Made by a program: the position numbers and the translations under genes. Under the pieces are notes generated by a model. That model ran no database searches and was not told the origin of the DNA. It saw only the letters and a list, made by a program, of their open reading frames with translations. 64,000 nucleotides of DNA from contig JARCOQ010000220.1 of the NCBI GenBank assembly GCA_029207755.1, positions 62,001 through 126,000 of the forward strand, given 5' to 3'. The DNA is from Chamaea fasciata (Eukaryota > Chordata > Aves > Passeriformes > Sylviidae). The stretch's first letter is position 1, and each line of letters starts with the position of its first letter. Positions 31,518-58,710 of this stretch are shown piece by piece.

Positions 31518-32410
<893 letters not shown>

Positions 32411-32523
32411 GAGTTAGGAACGACCCGGGTGGATCCTTCCCTTCTCCGGGCAAACTCCCCCAGCTCCTGGATCCTTTCCCATCTCCAAGAGCCCCACGGC
32501 CCCACCACGCCCCGTCTCCCCAC

Positions 32524-33057
32524 CTTCACCACGGGCCCGTCGGCGCCGTGAGCCACCAGGATGTTGTCGGCCTTGAGGTCGCGGTGCACGATGCGGCTGC
32601 GGTGCAGGAAGGCCACGGCGCCGCTCAGCTGCCGCATGAAGCTGCGGTTGAGGCGGGCGTCGGGGCGGCGCGCCAGCAGGAACTCGTTCAGGGTGCCGCC
32701 GCGGCAGAGCTCGGTGACGAACCACAGCGAGCAGGCCGAGCGCGGGTCGGCGCAGCCGCGGCCCTTCAGGCACGTCTCCACCAGCGGGCAGGGCCGGCCC
32801 TCCAAGGGCTGGAAGAGGCGGCCGCGCTGCAGGACGCACTCCTCCAGCTGCAGCACGTTCCGGTGCCGCCGCCGGACGCTGAGCAGGGCCCAGAGCTCCT
32901 GCAGGGCCAGCTCGGCGTTCTCGGGCGCGTGGCAGCGCATCCTCTTGACGGCCACGCGCCGCCCGCTGAGGTTGGCCACGGCCTCGTAGACCACGCCGTA
33001 GCTGCCTCGGCCCACCTCCCGCAGCAGGCTGTACTTGGGGGGACCCTCCTCGGCCAT
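32524..33057 (-). CDS. STK35/PDIK1L-family serine/threonine kinase, coding exon 1 (whole gene 33057-30286, 328 aa)
   Basis: This 534-nt exon encodes residues 1-178 and ends at GTGGTGAAG before a GTGGGG donor (phase 0). The start ATG at 33057 is well fixed: an in-frame TGA lies seven codons upstream (33078-33076). Visible kinase elements are the glycine loop GRGSYG (16-21), the VAVK lysine 38, a probable alpha-C glutamate 54, and HRDLKADN with Asp160 and Asn165. The later exons supply DFG and APE, so the enzyme should be active and transfer phosphate from ATP to Ser/Thr. Blocks such as RRHRNVLQLEECVLQR and LREVGRGSYGVVYEAV place it with STK35 and PDIK1L. Length is near PDIK1L (about 341), while several residues look closer to STK35, so it may be a third paralogue. 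Usual family roles are nuclear or actin-associated; none is shown here. The exon is very GC-rich, with CpG-island composition. Confidence 0.93.
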
Positions 33058-33091
33058 TCCCGATGGATCAGGGGCTCATGGCAGGGAAAAC
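33058..33091 (-). other. 5' untranslated start of kinase exon 1
   Basis: On the minus strand the exon begins after TTTAAATCCTCTCCCAG, preceded by a long T-rich tract. There are 34 untranslated nucleotides before the ATG. An upstream non-coding exon must exist, possibly near the promoter-like region at 35930-36110. Confidence 0.6.
33068..33079 (-). promoter_or_regulatory. Minimal upstream ORF (Met-Ser-Pro-stop)
   Basis: ATGAGCCCCTGA sits in the kinase leader. It ends 10 nt before the main ATG and is in a different frame. Such a very short upstream frame can lower or regulate translation of the main frame. The ATG itself overlaps the in-frame TGA that closes the kinase frame. Confidence 0.5.
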
Positions 33092-41749: not shown

Positions 41750-41820
41750 CAGGCGCGCACGTGGCCGGGGCGGGGGGCGCGATCCCGGCTATAAAAACCC
41801 CGCTCGGCTCCGGCACAACC
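41750..41820 (+). promoter_or_regulatory. PNOC: Probable PNOC core promoter (E-box, GC box, TATA)
   Basis: CACGTG lies at 41758-41763, a GGGGCGGGG Sp1-type box at about 41767-41776, and TATAAAA at 41790-41796. Transcription should start near 41820. The first downstream exon-like element ends in a consensus donor at 41865. The next plausible plus-strand coding exon is PNOC exon 2 at 51033, and opioid-family precursor genes have a non-coding first exon. The assignment to PNOC is inferred from order and strand. Confidence 0.65.
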
Positions 41821-41865
41821 GGCCAAGTCACGGAGCCGAGCGGCCGCCAGCTCAGCTCAGCGCAG
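41820..41865 (+). other. PNOC: Probable PNOC non-coding exon 1
   Basis: The segment from the inferred start to AGCTCAGCGCAG, followed by GTAGGA, forms a short untranslated exon. It has no ATG. The coding start is in the next exon at 51035. Confidence 0.55.
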
Positions 41866-42627
41866 GTAGGAATTCCTCTTTCCCGGGATGCTTTTATTCC
41901 CCCCCCACCACCCACCACATTTCCCCGATCCTCTTTTATTTTATTTTATTTTATTTAATTTTTTCCCCCCCACCCTTCATCCACGCTTTCTCTCCGCGTC
42001 CCGCTCCCGGCGCTCCCGCGGAGGCGATCGGAGCATCCCCGACCCCGCTCTCCCGGCGGAGGAAAAGTTTGCCTCTCCAGCCCCAAAATCCAGCCGAGTG
42101 GAGCCGCAGGGATGGATGCAACAAGAGGCGGCGTTGGCCTGCCCGGAGCCGGGGAGGGCTGCCGCGCTTCCTTCGGGATAACCGGGAATTTTGGGGTTTT
42201 TTTTTGGGAGGGGGGGGAAGGAATTTTTACAGGTTTGCCCATGCCGGTTTTTTCCCCACTACATTCCCCTTTCCCCGGGATTTTTCCCAGCTGCTGGGAT
42301 CACCCCTAAAATCACGGAAAAAAAAAAAAAACGACGAGCGTGGGATATTTTAATTTATTATTTTGTTGTCGCTTTGTTCGGTTCCGAGAACACCCCCCCC
42401 CCGCAAAAAAAAAAGGAAAATCAGGAGCGAGCGGCTGAGGAGATGTGGATGCGAGGGGGGGAAAAAATGTTATTCCCGGTTTTATTTTCCCCCTCTCCGA
42501 GCAGCCTTTTCCCGGCTCCCATCTGCGTTTTCCAGTCGCACCGCGGCGCCTCATTTTGGCCAATTATGGCCAATTACCTGATTGAGGGGCACCGCGAAAG
42601 AGGCAAGCGATGATTTTTTTTTTTTCC

Positions 42628-46239: not shown

Positions 46240-47432
46240 CCACCGAAACCCCAAAACCAAACAAACCCCATTGAAAATAAACCCCAATAAATAAACAAAC
46301 CCCACTGAATAAACCCCCAAAAATTAACAAACCCCACTGAAACAAACCCCAATAAACAAACCCCATTGAAATAAACCCCTTTAAACAAACCCCACTGAAT
46401 AAACCCCAATAAACAAACCCCACTGAAACAAACCCCATTAAACAAACCCCACTGAATAAACCCCAAAAATTTAACAAACCCCACTGAAACAAACCCCAAT
46501 AAACAAATCCCATTGAAATAAACCCCATTAAACAAACCCCACTGAATAAACCCCAATAAATAAACCCCATTGAAATAAACCCCAATAAACAAACAAACCC
46601 CACTGAATAAACCCCAATAAACCAATCCCATTGAAATAAACCCCAATAAACAAACCCCACTGAAATGAACCCCAATAAACAAACAAACCCCACTGAAATA
46701 AACCCCAATAAACAAATCCCATTGAAATAAACCCCAATAAACAAACCCCACTGAAATGAACCCCAATAAACAAACAAACCCCACTGAATAAACCCCAATA
46801 AACAAATCCCATTGAAATAAACCCCATTAAACAAACCCCACTGGATAAACCCCAATAAATAAACAAACCCCACTGAAATAAACCCCAATAAACAAATCCC
46901 ATTGAAATAAACCCCATTAAACAAACCCCACTGAATAAACCCCAATAAACAAACAAACCCCACTGAATAAACCCCAATAAACAAACCCCATTGAAATAAA
47001 CCCCATTAAACAAACCCCACTGGATAAACCCCAATAAACAAACAAACCCTACTGAATAAACCCCAATAAACCAATTCCATTGAAATAAACCCCATTAAAC
47101 AAACCCCACTGGATAAACCCCAATAAATAAACCCCATTGAAATAAACCCCAATAAACAAACCCCATTGAAAATAAACCCCAATAAACAAACAAACCCCAC
47201 TGAATAAACCCCAATAAACAAATCCCATTGAAATAAACCCCATTAAACAAACCCCACTGGATAAACCCCAATAAATAAACAAACCCCATTGAAAATAAAC
47301 CCCAATAAACAAACCCCATTGAAAATAAACCCCATTAAACAAACCCAAATAAACAAACCCCACTGAAATAAATCCCAATAAACAAACAAACCCCAATAAA
47401 CAAACCCCACTGAAACAAACCCCATTAAAAAT
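46240..47432. repeat. Minisatellite, about 27-34-bp unit AATAAACCCCAATAAACAAA
   Basis: Units combine CAAACCCCACTGAAATAAAC and CCCAATAAACAAA, about 40 copies, with almost no G except one per unit. Every unit carries AATAAA in the PNOC sense orientation, so dozens of poly(A)-signal hexamers lie inside the first intron. Confidence 0.93.
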
Positions 47433-48475
47433 TTTACAGGATTTCACGGGGTTTTGCGGGATCTTGCGGGGCTTTGTGGGGTTCTGCGGGTTTTTATAGG
47501 ATTTTGTGGGGTTTCACGGGATTTCATGGGGTTTTGGTGGATTTTGCGGGATTTTGGCGGATTTTGCGGGGTTTTGCGGGATTCCATGGGGTCTTGTGGG
47601 ATTTCACGGGATTCGGGGGGGAGTTTGAGGGGTTTCACAGGATTTTGTGGGATTTTGTGGGATTTTGTGGGATTTTCCACAGGGTTTTATGGGATTTCAC
47701 GGGTTTTGTGGGATTTCTCGGGGCTCTGCGGGACTTCGTGGGATTTTCTGGGATTTCGTGGTATTTTGCAGGGTTTTGTGGGGTTTCACAGGATTTCCCA
47801 GGATTTTGTGGGATTTCCCAGGATTTTGTGGGATTTTGTGGGATTTCACAGGATTTTGTGGGATTTTTGCAGCATTTCCCAGGATTTTGTGGGATTTCCC
47901 AGGGTTTTGTGGGGTTTCACAGGATTTCCCAGGATTTTGTGGGATTTCCCAGGATTTTGTGGGATTTTTGCAGCATTTCCCAGGATTTTGCGGGATTTCA
48001 CAGGTTTTAGTGGGACTTCATGGGATTTTGCGGGATTTTGCAGGATTTTGTGGGATTTCACAGGATTTTGTGGGATTTCGCAGGATTTTGCAGGGTTTTG
48101 TGGGATTTTTGCAGCATTTCACAGGATTTTGTGGGATTTCACAGGATTTCCCAGGATTTTGTGGGATTTTTGCAGCATTTCCCAGGATTCTGTGGGATTT
48201 CGCAGGATTTTGTGGGATTTTGTGGGATTTCGCAGGATTTTGTGGGATTCTGTGGGATTTCGCAGGATTTTGTGGGATTCTGTGGGATTTCACAGGATTT
48301 TGTGGGATTTTGCGGGATTTCGCAGGATTTTGTGGGATTTTGCGGGATTTCGCAGGGTTTCGTGGGATCTCACGGAGTTTTACAGGATTTTTGTGGGATT
48401 TCCCAGGGTTTCGGGGGTTTTCAGGGGTTTTGGGGTCTTTCCTGGGTTTGGGATGGTTCTCAGGGCCGTGTCCCC
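47433..48475. repeat. Minisatellite, about 20-bp unit GGATTTTGTGGGATTTCACA
   Basis: Units of TTTTGTGGGATTTCACAGG, with TTTCCCAG, TTTCGCAG and TTTTTGCAGC variants, run for 1 kb. The array is G/T-rich on the sense strand, opposite in strand bias to the array before it. Most units contain a pyrimidine-AG that resembles a weak 3' splice site. Confidence 0.93.
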
Positions 48476-48479
48476 GCGG

Positions 48480-51034
48480 TGCTGCCACCGTGAGGGCCGT
48501 GCTCTGGTTTGGGGTGTTTTGGGATGTTTTGGGGTATTTTGGGGTGTTTCTGGGGTATTTTTGGGGTGTTTTGGGGTGTTTTGGGGTGTTTTTGGGGTTC
48601 TGAGGCCGCTGTCCCCGCAGCCATGAGGGCCGTGCTCTGGTTTGGGGTATTTTGGGATGTTTTGGGGGTTTTTTTTTGGGTGCTTTGGGGTATTTTGGGG
48701 TGTTTTTGGGGTGTTTCTGGGCTATTTTGGGGTGTTTTGGGGTGTTTTTGGGGGTTCTGAGGCCGCTGTCCCCGCAGCCATGAGGGCCGTGCTCTGGTTT
48801 GGGATGTTTTGGGGTAATTTGGGGTATTTTGGGATGTTTTGGGGTAATTTGGGGTGGTTTTGGGGTGTTTGGGGGTGTTCTGGGGTGTTTCTGGGGTGTT
48901 TTGGTGTTCTGAGGCCGCTGTCCCCGCAGCCATGAGGACCGTGCTCTGGTTTGGGGTGTTTTGGGATGTTTTGGGGTATTTTGGGGTGGTTTTGGGGGTT
49001 TTTGGGGTGGTTTTCGGGTATTTTTTGGGGTGTTTCTGGGGTATTTTTGGGGTGTTTTGGGGTGTTCTGGGGTGTTTCTGGGGGTTCTGAGGCCGCTGTC
49101 CCCGCAGCCATGAGGGCCGTGCTCTGGTTTGGGGTGTTTTGGGATGTTTTGGGGTATTTTGGGGTGGTTTGGGGGGTTTTTGGGGTGTTTCTGGGGTATT
49201 TTGGGGTGTTCTGGGGTGTTTCTGGGGTGTTTTTGGGGGTTCTGAGGCCGCTGTCCCCGCAGCCATGAGGGCCATGCTCTGCTTTGGGGTATTTTGGGGT
49301 TTTTTGGAGTATTTTGGGGTAATTTGGGGTGGTTTTGGGGTGTTTGGGGGTGTTCTGGGGTGTTTCTGGGGTGTTTTGGTGTTCTGAGGCCGCTGTCCCC
49401 GCAGCCATGAGGACCGTGCTCTGGTTTGGGGTGTTTTGGGATGTTTTGGGGTATTTTGGGGTGGTTTTGGGGGTTTTTGGGGTGGTTTTCGGGTATTTTT
49501 TGGGGTGTTTCTGGGGTATTTTTGGGGTGTTCTGGGGTGTTCTGGGGTGTTTCTGGGGGTTCTGAGGCCGCTGTCCCCGCAGCCATGAGGGCCGTGCTCT
49601 GGTTTGGGGTATTTTGGGATGTTTTGGGGGTTTTTGGGGTGGTTTGGGGGTATTTTGGGGTGTTTCTGGGGTATTTTGGGGGTGTTTTGGGGTGTTTTGG
49701 GGTGTTTCTGGGGGTTCTGAGGCTGCTGTCCCCGCAGCCATGAGGGCCGTGCTCTGGTTTGGGGTGTTTTGGGATGTTTTGGGGTAATTTGGGGTATTTT
49801 GGGATGTTTTGGGGTAATTTGGGGTGTTCTGGGGTATTTTTGGGTGTCTTGGGGTGTTTTTGGGGGTTCTGAGGCCGCTGTCCCCGCAGCCATGAGGGCC
49901 GTGCTCTGGTTTGGGGTGTTTTGGGATGTTTTGGGGTATTTTGGGGTGGTTTGGGGGGTTTTTGGGGTGGTTTTGGGGTATTTTGGGGTGTTTCTGGGGT
50001 ATTTTTGGGGTGTTTTGGGGTGTTTTGGGGTGTTTCTGGGGGTTCTGAGGCCGCTGTCCCCGCAGCCATGAGGGCCGTGCTCTGGTTTGGGGTGTTTTGG
50101 GATGTTTTGGGGTATTTTGGGGTGGTTTGGGGGGTTTTTGGGGTGTTTTGGGGTATTTTGGGGTGTTTCTGGGGTATTTTTGGGGTGTTTTGGGGTGTTT
50201 TGGGGTGTTTCTGGGGGTTCTGAGGCCGCTGTCCCCGCAGCCATGAGGGCCATGCTCTGCTTTGGGGTATTTTGGGGTTTTTTGGAGTATTTTGGGGTAA
50301 TTTGGGGTGGTTTTGGGGTGTTTGGGGGTGTTCTGGGGTGTTTCTGGGGTGTTTTGGTGTTCTGAGGCCGCTGTCCCCGCAGCCATGAGGACCGTGCTCT
50401 GGTTTGGGGTGTTTTGGGATGTTTTGGGGTATTTTGGGGTGGTTTTGGGGGTTTTTGGGGTGGTTTTCGGGTATTTTTTGGGGTGTTTCTGGGGTATTTT
50501 TGGGGTGTTTTGGGGTGTTCTGGGGTGTTTCTGGGGGTTCTGAGGCCGCTGTCCCCGCAGCCATGAGGGCCGTGCTCTGGTTTGGGGTATTTTGGGATGT
50601 TTTGGGGGTTTTTGGGGTGGTTTGGGGGTATTTTGGGGTGTTTCTGGGGTGTTTTGGGGTGTTTTGGGGTGTTTCTGGGGGTTCTGAGGCCGCTGTCCCC
50701 GCAGCCATGAGGGCCGTGCTCTGGTTTGGGGTGTTTTGGGATGTTTTGGGGTAATTTGGGGTATTTTGGGATGTTTTGGGGTAATTTGGGGTGTTCTGGG
50801 GTATTTTTGGGTGTCTTGGGGTGTTTTTGGGGGTTCTGAGGCCGCTGTCCCCGCAGCCATGAGGGCCGTGCTCTGGTTTGGGGTGTTTTGGGATGTTTTG
50901 GGGTATTTTGGGGTGGTTTGGGGGGTTTTTGGGGTGGTTTTGGGGTATTTTGGGGTGTTTCTGGGGTATTTTTGGGGTGTTTTGGGGTGTTTTGGGGTGT
51001 TTCTGGGGGTTCTGAGGCCGCTGTCCCCGCAGCC
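48480..51034 (+). repeat. Minisatellite carrying copied PNOC exon-2 acceptor and start codon, 142-178-bp unit, 15 decoys
   Basis: Each unit contains GAGGCCGCTGTCCCCGCAG, CCATGAGGGCCGTGCTCTGG and then G/T-rich filler (TTTTGGGGTGTTTTGGGG). The same 36-39 bp forms the real acceptor and first six codons of PNOC exon 2 at 51035. Decoy ATGs are at 48623, 48780, 48932, 49110, 49265, 49407, 49585, 49740, 49892, 50068, 50243, 50385, 50563, 50707 and 50859. A degenerate copy with GTG stands at 48490. Units 49265-50068 and 50243-51035 are two versions of one six-unit block. Confidence 0.95.
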
Positions 51035-51157
51035 ATGAGGGCCGTGCTCTGGGACCTGCTGCTGCTCTGCCTGTTCGCCCGCGCGCGCGGCGACTGCCGG
51101 GGCGACTGCCTGCACTGCGACCGCCAGCTCTTCTACCGCGACAGCTTCGACGTCCTC
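51033..51157 (+). CDS. PNOC: PNOC coding exon 1 (signal peptide and first cysteines)
   Basis: After acceptor CCGCTGTCCCCGCAG the exon has CC, then ATG at 51035, and encodes 41 residues: MRAVLWDLLLLCLFARARG (a signal peptide, probable cleavage near residue 19), then DCRGDCLHCDRQLFYRDSFD and VL, before a strong GTGAGT donor at 51158. The C-x3-C-x2-C pattern (Cys21, 25, 28) followed by DSFD matches the N-terminal cysteine module of prepronociceptin and other opioid precursors. The phase is 0. The start is chosen because it is the only ATG followed by a secretory signal; the 15 upstream ATG copies lead into G/T-rich filler. Confidence 0.93.
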
Positions 51158-51359
51158 GTGAGTGTCACCTGCCGGCCCCCGTCACCGCGGGCACGCTCAT
51201 CCCTCGGCCGGCGTCTGGGGACATCGGGAGCGTCCCCACCGCTGTCCCCTGGGCGCCTTCAATCAGAGAGGGGCTGGGCTCCGGGGGGATTCGGGCTTTG
51301 AGGAGAAGGTGCCACCTGCTGTCGTTGTCACTCCCAGGTGGGCACCGGGATGGTCCCCA

Positions 51360-57244: not shown

Positions 57245-58322
57245 TCCATCCCCTGCTGGTGTCCCTGCTGGTGTCCCTGCTGTCCCCGATGATGTGTCTG
57301 ATGATGTCCTTGATGCTGTCCCTGGTGATGTCCCTGGTGATGTCACTGGTGATGTCCCTGGTGACGTCCCTGCTGTCCCTAATGATGTCCCTGGTGACGT
57401 CCCTGCTGCTGTCCCTGATGTCCCTGCTGTGCCTGACAGTGTCCCCGACGATGTCCCTGATGATGACGGTGTCCCTGACGATGCCCCTGATGTCCCTGTT
57501 GTCCCTGCTGATGTCCCTGAGGACGTCCCTGGTGACGTCCCTGCTGCTGTCCCTGATGTCCCTGTTGTGCCTGACTGTGTCCCTGACTGTGTCCCTGATG
57601 ATGACGGTGTCCCTGACGATGTCCCTGCTGCTGTCCCTGACAATGTCCCCGATGTCCCCACTGTCCCTGACGATGCCCCTGATGATGTCCCGGATGTCCC
57701 TACGATGTCCCTGCTCTCCCTGATGTCCCTGCCGATGTCCCTGCTGTCTCTGATGTCCCTGCTGCTGTCTCTGATGTCCCTGCTGTCCCTGCTGATGTCC
57801 CTGCTGATGTCCCTGGTGATGTCCCTGCCGTCTCTGATGTCCCTGCTGATGTCCCCACTGATGTCCCTGCTGTCCCTGCTGATGTCCCTGCTGATGTCCC
57901 TGCTGATGTCCCCCACTGACGTCTCTGATGTCCCTGCTGTCCCTGGTGATGTCCCTGCTGATGTCCATGGTGATGTCCCTGCTGTCCCTGCTGTCCCTGC
58001 TGTCCCCACTGATGTCCCTGCCGTCCCTGCCGATGTCCCCGCTGACGTCTCTGATGTCCCTGCTGATGTTTCTGATGTCCCTGCCGATGTCCCTGCCGAT
58101 GTCCCTGCTGTCCCTGCCGATGTCCCTGCCGATGTCCCTGCTGTCCCTGCCGATGTCCCTGCCGTCCCTGCCGATGTCCCTGCTGTCTCTGATGTCCCTG
58201 CTGCTGTCCCCACTGATGTCCCTGCTGTCCCTGCCGATGTCCCTGCCGACGTCCCCGCTGACGTCCCTGATGTCCGCCGTGACCGTCCCTGGTCCCCGCT
58301 GACGCTGTCCCCTACGTCCCTG
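57245..58322. repeat. Minisatellite of GATGTCCCTGCT units (9/12/15 bp) ending at the PNOC exon acceptor
   Basis: Units GATGTCCCTGCT, GTCCCTGCT, GATGTCCCTGCC and GACGTCTCT run to within a few bases of the CCCTGGCAG acceptor at 58326. Because all unit lengths are multiples of three, frames stay open (DVPAVPADVP and MSLLSL types on the plus strand, GTSAGTAGTS on the minus). The upstream piece 57075-57245 is GC-rich and unique. Confidence 0.93.
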
Positions 58323-58326
58323 GCAG

Positions 58327-58469
58327 ATCTGCGTCCTGGAGTGCGAGGGCCAGGCGGTGCCCAGGGCCACCTGGGAGCTCTGCGCCGCCGCCAGCCGAGC
58401 CGCCCCTCGGCCGCGTCCCCTCGCCGCCCGCGCCTGGCCCGGCGCCGCGCCCTCGCGCCGTCCCGACGA

Positions 58470-58502
<33 letters not shown>

Positions 58503-58710
58503 TCAGGACATTTCCCGGCGGCCCGCGGAAAGCCGGGCGGCCAAGGGGGTGCAGAAGAGGTACGGGGGTTTCATCGGGGTGCGGAAGTCGGCGCGCAAGT
58601 GGAACAACCAGAAGAGGTTTAGCGAGTTCCTGAAGCAGTACCTGGGCATGGCGCCGCGCTCCAGTGAGTACGGCCCCGGCCCCGGCGCCGGCCGTGACAA
58701 CGAGATCTGA
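58327..58710 (+). CDS. PNOC: PNOC coding exon 2: nociceptin/orphanin FQ precursor
   Basis: The exon encodes residues 42-168. ICVLEC...ELC supplies Cys43, 47 and 60, completing the six-cysteine opioid-precursor module. A poly-Asp run (88-96, from nine GAC codons, then Gly-Asp-Asp) fills the acidic spacer. Dibasic Lys-Arg 118-119 and 137-138 release YGGFIGVRKSARKWNNQ (120-136), a 17-residue nociceptin. FSEFLKQYLGMAPRSS follows, like the mammalian C-terminal peptide. The secreted peptide should act on the NOP receptor. Mammalian nociceptin starts with Phe; here it starts with Tyr. The predicted precursor is 168 residues, close to human (176). A GTGAGT donor at 58664 offers an alternative end that would replace the last 14 codons with another exon. 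Confidence 0.94.
58465..58500 (+). repeat. PNOC: Coding trinucleotide repeat (GAC)9-GGC-(GAC)2
   Basis: This in-frame microsatellite encodes the acidic run of the precursor just before the nociceptin sequence. Its length may vary between individuals. Confidence 0.95.

Follow-up and report, generated by a model that had tools for sequence, protein, structure and literature searches.

A tandem array of 16 units, each of which carries the branch point, acceptor and initiator codon of exon 2 of the prepronociceptin gene (PNOC), is located directly at the 5' edge of that exon in the analyzed window (the whole stretch of 64,000 nt). The copying of exon edges together with splice sites had already been described in bird introns, of which the preliminary description of this locus was unaware. 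Hron et al. (2026; PMC12954441) reported "sequence stuttering" in introns of chicken dot chromosomes and named it "exon stuttering" when the sequence repeated along the intron is one side of an exon together with its splice donor or acceptor. The PNOC array fits the definition of exon stuttering and, judging by its sequence, is unambiguously a further example of this recently described instability of bird genomes. We consider it likely that the array arose by exon stuttering that copied the 5' edge of PNOC exon 2, that it was enlarged by exchange and that the last acceptor is the one used; the array would then most likely be a tolerated by-product. With this case, exon stuttering now includes a neuropeptide gene, a unit that contains an initiator codon and, probably, a songbird, and the locus offers a natural experiment on how one acceptor is chosen among 16 near-equal sites.

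The PNOC gene and its sequence context

The gene on the forward strand is PNOC of the avian type, as identified from its predicted product, which matches the opioid neuropeptide family (PF01160, E = 8.3e-14). A TATAAAA box (41790..41796) can be read in the sequence, and its spacing from the donor of exon 1 suggests that it belongs to the PNOC promoter. Exon 1 (41820..41865) is non-coding; its start is approximate, being guessed from the TATA box, and it ends at the donor CAG/GTAGGA at 41866. Exon 2 (51033..51157) consists of CC and 41 codons, encodes the signal peptide and is followed by the donor CTC/GTGAGT at 51158. The coding part of exon 3 (58327..58710, up to the TGA) comprises 127 codons plus the stop and contains KR-YGGFIGVRKSARKWNNQ-KR. 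Both coding exons are open and, when joined, encode a 168-residue PNOC. The introns flanking exon 2 are 9.2 kb (upstream) and 7.2 kb (downstream) long.

The hexapeptide preceding the nociceptin cleavage site is AAKGVQ, which is the one listed for the common canary (PMC10280075) and makes a passerine likely. According to the same source, the nociceptin sequence of birds is identical to that of other non-mammalian tetrapods, so the peptide alone cannot narrow down the species. In the zebra finch, an EST spans the first 77 PNOC residues (PMC2873334), and hence a songbird transcript with the PNOC N-terminus exists; the gene was only partly present in the 2010 genome data and had to be retrieved from this EST, as would be expected of such a repeat-rich locus. 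Exon 3 itself contains a coding trinucleotide repeat, a run of nine GAC codons (58465-58491) encoding poly-Asp, in the same repeat-prone gene. A search of solved structures for PNOC returned none.

Tandem repeats (TRF score of at least 100) constitute 47% of the window; their share reaches 64% in intron 1 and 75% in intron 2. About one-third of the non-overlapping G-quadruplex motifs of the forward strand (33/95 in the window) fall into the 2.5-kb array at 48508-51052, where they lie on the sense strand of the pre-mRNA. Sense-strand comparison of exons 1 and 3 with introns 1 and 2, 20 kb of upstream sequence and the 3' flank yielded no match of at least 15 nt. An array based on a 12-bp repeat (57251-58269) stops just upstream of the acceptor of exon 3 (58326) and contains no copied exon sequence of at least 15 nt. 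On the reverse strand, the window contains a protein kinase exon (32188-33075; PF00069, E 2.1e-22), which resembles STK35/PDIK1L; capture of this exon into its own flanks was not seen on the sense strand, the best match being 13 nt. Of 20 large ORFs outside the repeats, one has a Pfam match, and no structured RNA family reached its gathering score anywhere in the window.

Architecture of the array

The array (48508..51052, forward strand) consists of 16 units arranged head to tail, with lengths of 133-178 bp. Each unit starts with a G/T-rich filler made of 10-11 bp repeats and ends with TTCTGAGGCCGCTGTCCCCGCAG joined at the exon border to CCATGAGGGCCGTGCTCTGG. A search for GCTGTCCCCGCAGNNATGAGGGCCGTGCTC with up to three mismatches found 16 matches (48608-51049), all on the forward strand, 11 of them exact and five with a single mismatch, whereas 100 shuffles yielded no match. 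Only the last core, which is the genuine edge of exon 2, runs into the PNOC signal peptide. The other 15, identified as sequence matches at 48608..50876, are decoys with their first exonic bases at 48621, 48778, 48930, 49108, 49263, 49405, 49583, 49738, 49890, 50066, 50241, 50383, 50561, 50705 and 50857. Thus, the preliminary description was accurate in its account of the anatomy: it had assigned the gene to PNOC, counted 16 copies of the acceptor and start context with only the last leading into the signal peptide, and proposed that the repeat unit had captured both elements.

The captured piece comprises bases 1-20 of exon 2, starting at the very first exonic base and with the acceptor attached. 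The 20-mer CCATGAGGGCCGTGCTCTGG is exact in the real exon and in two-thirds of the decoys (10/15), whereas the other five differ by one or two bases. CCGCAGCCATGAGG is the same in all 16 copies, as is CCATG, and both AG and ATG are retained in 15/15 decoys. Besides the acceptor AG, the only adenine between position -60 and the acceptor is at -18, within CTGAG, the position expected for a branch point; an additional adenine at -54 is present in 3 of the 16 copies. The branch-point/acceptor part (23 nt) has one variable column among the 16 copies, and three columns vary in the 15 copied coding bases next to it.

A decayed 17th copy of the exon 2 edge (48455..48507, forward strand) precedes the array. 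Its last 17 bases are identical to exon 2, the acceptor AG is changed to GG and the ATG to GTG, and it contains approximately 8 extra bases. The latter make TGCTGCCACCGTGAGG, a near-Kozak context. This copy may preserve an older and longer edge of exon 2, from which 8 bases were lost before the amplification. The exact core sequence had no match among viral contigs, and the predicted RNA fold of one unit plus core is not unusually stable (z = -0.71).

Acceptor choice and upstream start codons

Splice sites were scored with crude matrices (not MaxEnt), which serve for ranking only. By this measure the 16 acceptors of the array are nearly equivalent, at 2.55 bits for 15 of them and 3.09 bits for one decoy. 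The real acceptor ranks 53rd among the 262 AGs scored between 41866 and 51200, as the best placed of a 15-way tie. The neighboring array of a 10-bp repeat (ATTTTGCGGG, 47431-48401), in which TTTCGCAG was read at six sites, accounts for 30 of the 40 best-scoring AGs listed, all of them above the true acceptor; hence the decoys are not special within intron 1. Donors of the type GGG/GTAATT in the filler score slightly higher than the exon 2 donor (5.87 vs. 5.23 with the same crude matrix), so that cryptic exons may be formed.

The array acceptors differ in the exons that they would produce. Exon 2 is 125 nt long with the last acceptor and 301 nt with the next one, the range over all decoys being 301-2537 nt. 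Exon definition favors the sites closest across the exon, and upstream 3' splice sites are preferred overall, a preference that is only reduced, with no clear reversal, in the class with long introns on both sides (Carranza et al., PMC9225289). Some use of decoys is therefore conceivable. Nevertheless, since both introns flanking exon 2 are long and only the last acceptor yields an exon of normal size, the spliceosome most likely selects the last acceptor through exon definition.

Any transcript spliced to a decoy would carry a leader with many upstream ATGs, as had been anticipated: their number varies between 2 and 33, and none is in frame into PNOC. The distances between successive ATGs range from 142 to 178 nt, and 7 of the 15 equal 152, 155 or 176. 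At these spacings the frame opened by one ATG had been proposed to close on the ATGA of the next copy. This holds for five of the seven (copies 2, 4, 7, 9 and 15), whereas copies 8 and 14 halt earlier at a TAA. Among the remaining eight frames, seven end at the TGA of TTCTGAGG, and that of copy 13 reads through the next ATG. Only one upstream ORF, starting at 50859 in copy 15 and 59 codons long, terminates on the PNOC start itself as ATGA; its peptide, the sole one compared with Pfam, had no match.

Possible function of the decoys

The most serious competitor of a tolerated by-product is a regulatory array of splice decoys, which we regard as unlikely. Under this explanation, a share of transcripts that depends on copy number is spliced to decoys, the resulting leaders with upstream ATGs are poorly translated or degraded, and array length sets the output of nociceptin. 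The complete retention of AG and ATG, the single variable column in the 23-nt part, the out-of-frame upstream ATGs and the copy 15 ORF that ends on the PNOC start are all compatible with it. By analogy, a VNTR with a splice site alters splicing in human ABCA7 (PMC5954066). On the other hand, use of the decoys would give the long forms of exon 2 noted above, and neither of two comparisons pointed to selection. Variable columns are rarer in the decoy cores (1/28) than in the adjoining copied coding bases (3/15), but the difference is not significant (Fisher P=0.11), and little variation in the cores is expected of a young array. The excess of variable columns in the filler (36/112) over the core is significant (P=0.0014) and would favor selection, but the alignment of low-complexity filler is unreliable. 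Selection for start-stop overlap was likewise rejected, since spacings of that class occur at the frequency expected by chance (7/15, P=0.20). Overall, the 16 copies provide no good evidence for selection on decoys or overlaps, and the earlier suggestion that the array damps or tunes PNOC translation found no support.

A heritable version of the same idea, in our judgment slightly less probable still, treats the array as a length-variable damper. Exchanges at the acceptor/ATG core would add or remove several equal acceptors at once and so shift the share of PNOC transcripts lost to decoys; if this were true, individuals would differ in their nociceptin output.

Growth of the array

All 16 unit junctions have the same form, CTCTG[G/C] followed by TTTGGG, and a single founding junction is therefore likely. 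Beyond this, the array contains a repeat of higher order. The five-unit blocks U06-U10 (49283..50085) and U12-U16 (50261..51052), the latter abutting the rest of exon 2, align over 803 columns with 790 identities, 2 mismatches and 11 gap columns. The unit between them, U11, is a hybrid: it differs from U10/U16 by the deletion of one filler base and by two bases in its tail, the latter found elsewhere only in U05. Moreover, U05 and U11 each precede the same unit type (U06 = U12). A 40-bp run, TGGGGGTTCTGAGG...GAGGGCC, is common to U05 (49234-49273), U11 (50212-50251) and the genuine branch-point/acceptor/ATG stretch at the exon edge (51004-51043). The array retains the trace of its last growth step, the duplication of a 978-bp block, and we infer that the exchange point lay in the interval 50212..50251 of U11, i.e., inside the 40-bp stretch that includes acceptor and ATG. 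The simplest reading of this pattern would be unequal exchange in which a decoy core recombined with the core then adjoining exon 2. U05 and U10 also share an identical run of 60 bp at their 5' ends, and gene conversion or haplotypes joined by the assembler would leave a similar trace.

The history of the locus may then be outlined as follows. A local tandem duplication would have brought base 20 of the exon (CTCTGG) next to TTTGGGG, a G/T-rich stretch located further upstream in intron 1. Exchange between units would have enlarged the array, with that between a decoy core and the core adjoining exon 2 as the latest event, while the 10-11 bp repeats of the filler slipped. Every product of such exchanges would still have its last core intact and continuous with exon 2, leaving the coding sequence untouched, and RNAs spliced to decoys, with their upstream ATGs, would yield little nociceptin.

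The copy number given here is that of one assembly, and an assembly artefact has to be weighed: at least the second five-unit block might have been falsely duplicated from haplotypes or misassembled, so that the true number is smaller. The two blocks are indeed as similar as two alleles might be, and local variation in introns of this kind is sometimes technical, as Hron et al. warn (PMC12954441). However, the 11 units outside the second block represent about nine distinct types of filler, with U04/U07 and U10/U11 as pairs that are nearly identical, a diversity that two haplotypes of a single copy would not produce. In addition, raw nanopore reads confirmed the tandem arrangement in stuttered PHF8 introns of chicken (PMC12954441), a precedent that would speak for the PNOC array by analogy. 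An artefact thus appears improbable, and growth of a genuine array by exchange remains our preferred interpretation.

Comparison with exon stuttering in chicken

In chicken, stuttering was described for 115 genes and 236 introns. The pieces copied from exons measure 20-187 bp (median 36) and are present in 1-44 copies (median 4), more than 90% of their sources lie at most one base from the border of the exon, and intron length varies strongly between individuals (PMC12954441). No further paper in the literature searched used the corresponding terms. The PNOC array resembles such cases as PHF8 intron 18 in that one side of an exon, together with its splice site, is repeated in tandem within the adjacent, repeat-rich intron while the exon itself is intact. 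The copies abut the exon border and include the splice site; 15 of them lie in intron 1 in addition to the decayed one, and both the copied length of 20 bp and the copy number of 15-16 are within the reported ranges. The tandem-repeat shares of introns 1 and 2 also fall inside the 7-93% range of median simple-repeat coverage on chicken dot chromosomes, the two measures being different. In contrast to the cases in the main text of Hron et al., the captured edge of PNOC carries the initiator ATG; that main text, to which our comparison was confined, contains neither "PNOC" nor "start codon". The described cases are from chicken and preferentially from dot chromosomes; the PNOC of the present locus, with YGGFIGVRKSARKWNNQ and the AAKGVQ listed for canary, points to a probable passerine.

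With the BLAST settings of Hron et al., exact 20-base copies score 40.1 bits, and 50 shuffles of intron 1 reach at most 30.2 bits. That intron 1 harbors an ordinary minisatellite with an incidental resemblance to exon 2 is hardly credible, even though the intron holds many unrelated arrays: bases 1-20 of the exon recur in every unit, and both the core search and these shuffle scores contradict it. The copies have the minimal length of 20 required in the published screen and score below its 42.1-bit cut-off, which is a noise filter and not part of the definition of exon stuttering. Because this cut-off misses 20-base captures, such arrays may be undercounted. As possible causes, Hron et al. named replication stress linked to G-quadruplexes and meiotic strand invasion and called the mechanism speculative (PMC12954441). 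Unit U11 bears on this question, as it would set an exchange inside the copied splice-site core.

Comparison with other tandem splice sites

A literature search for tandem arrays of an acceptor plus a start codon found nothing related, and the nearest systems share only parts of the PNOC arrangement. The IFI6 (6-16) minisatellite reportedly contains multiple splice donors (Turri et al., 1995); it is similar to PNOC in being a minisatellite with repeated splice sites and differs in that these are donors. The VNTR in intron 18 of human ABCA7 likewise has the splice site of the exon itself at its beginning; a single unit can be retained in RNA, and the length of the VNTR affects splicing (PMC5954066). 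Unlike in PNOC, this site is a donor, the unit is only 25 bp long, and the available sections of that report make no mention of a start codon. In polyubiquitin UBC, equivalent sites also occur in a tandem repeat, but these are dual-specific sites, each both donor and acceptor, by which coding repeats are spliced in or out (PMC10809524). The W-repeat exons of EBV share with PNOC the repetition of acceptors in a tandem array, and the choice between the W1 and W1' acceptors decides whether a start codon is made (PMC12451641). There, however, the genome is viral and the repeats themselves are spliced exons that form part of the gene product, whereas the PNOC repeats are intronic copies of the edge of a single exon.
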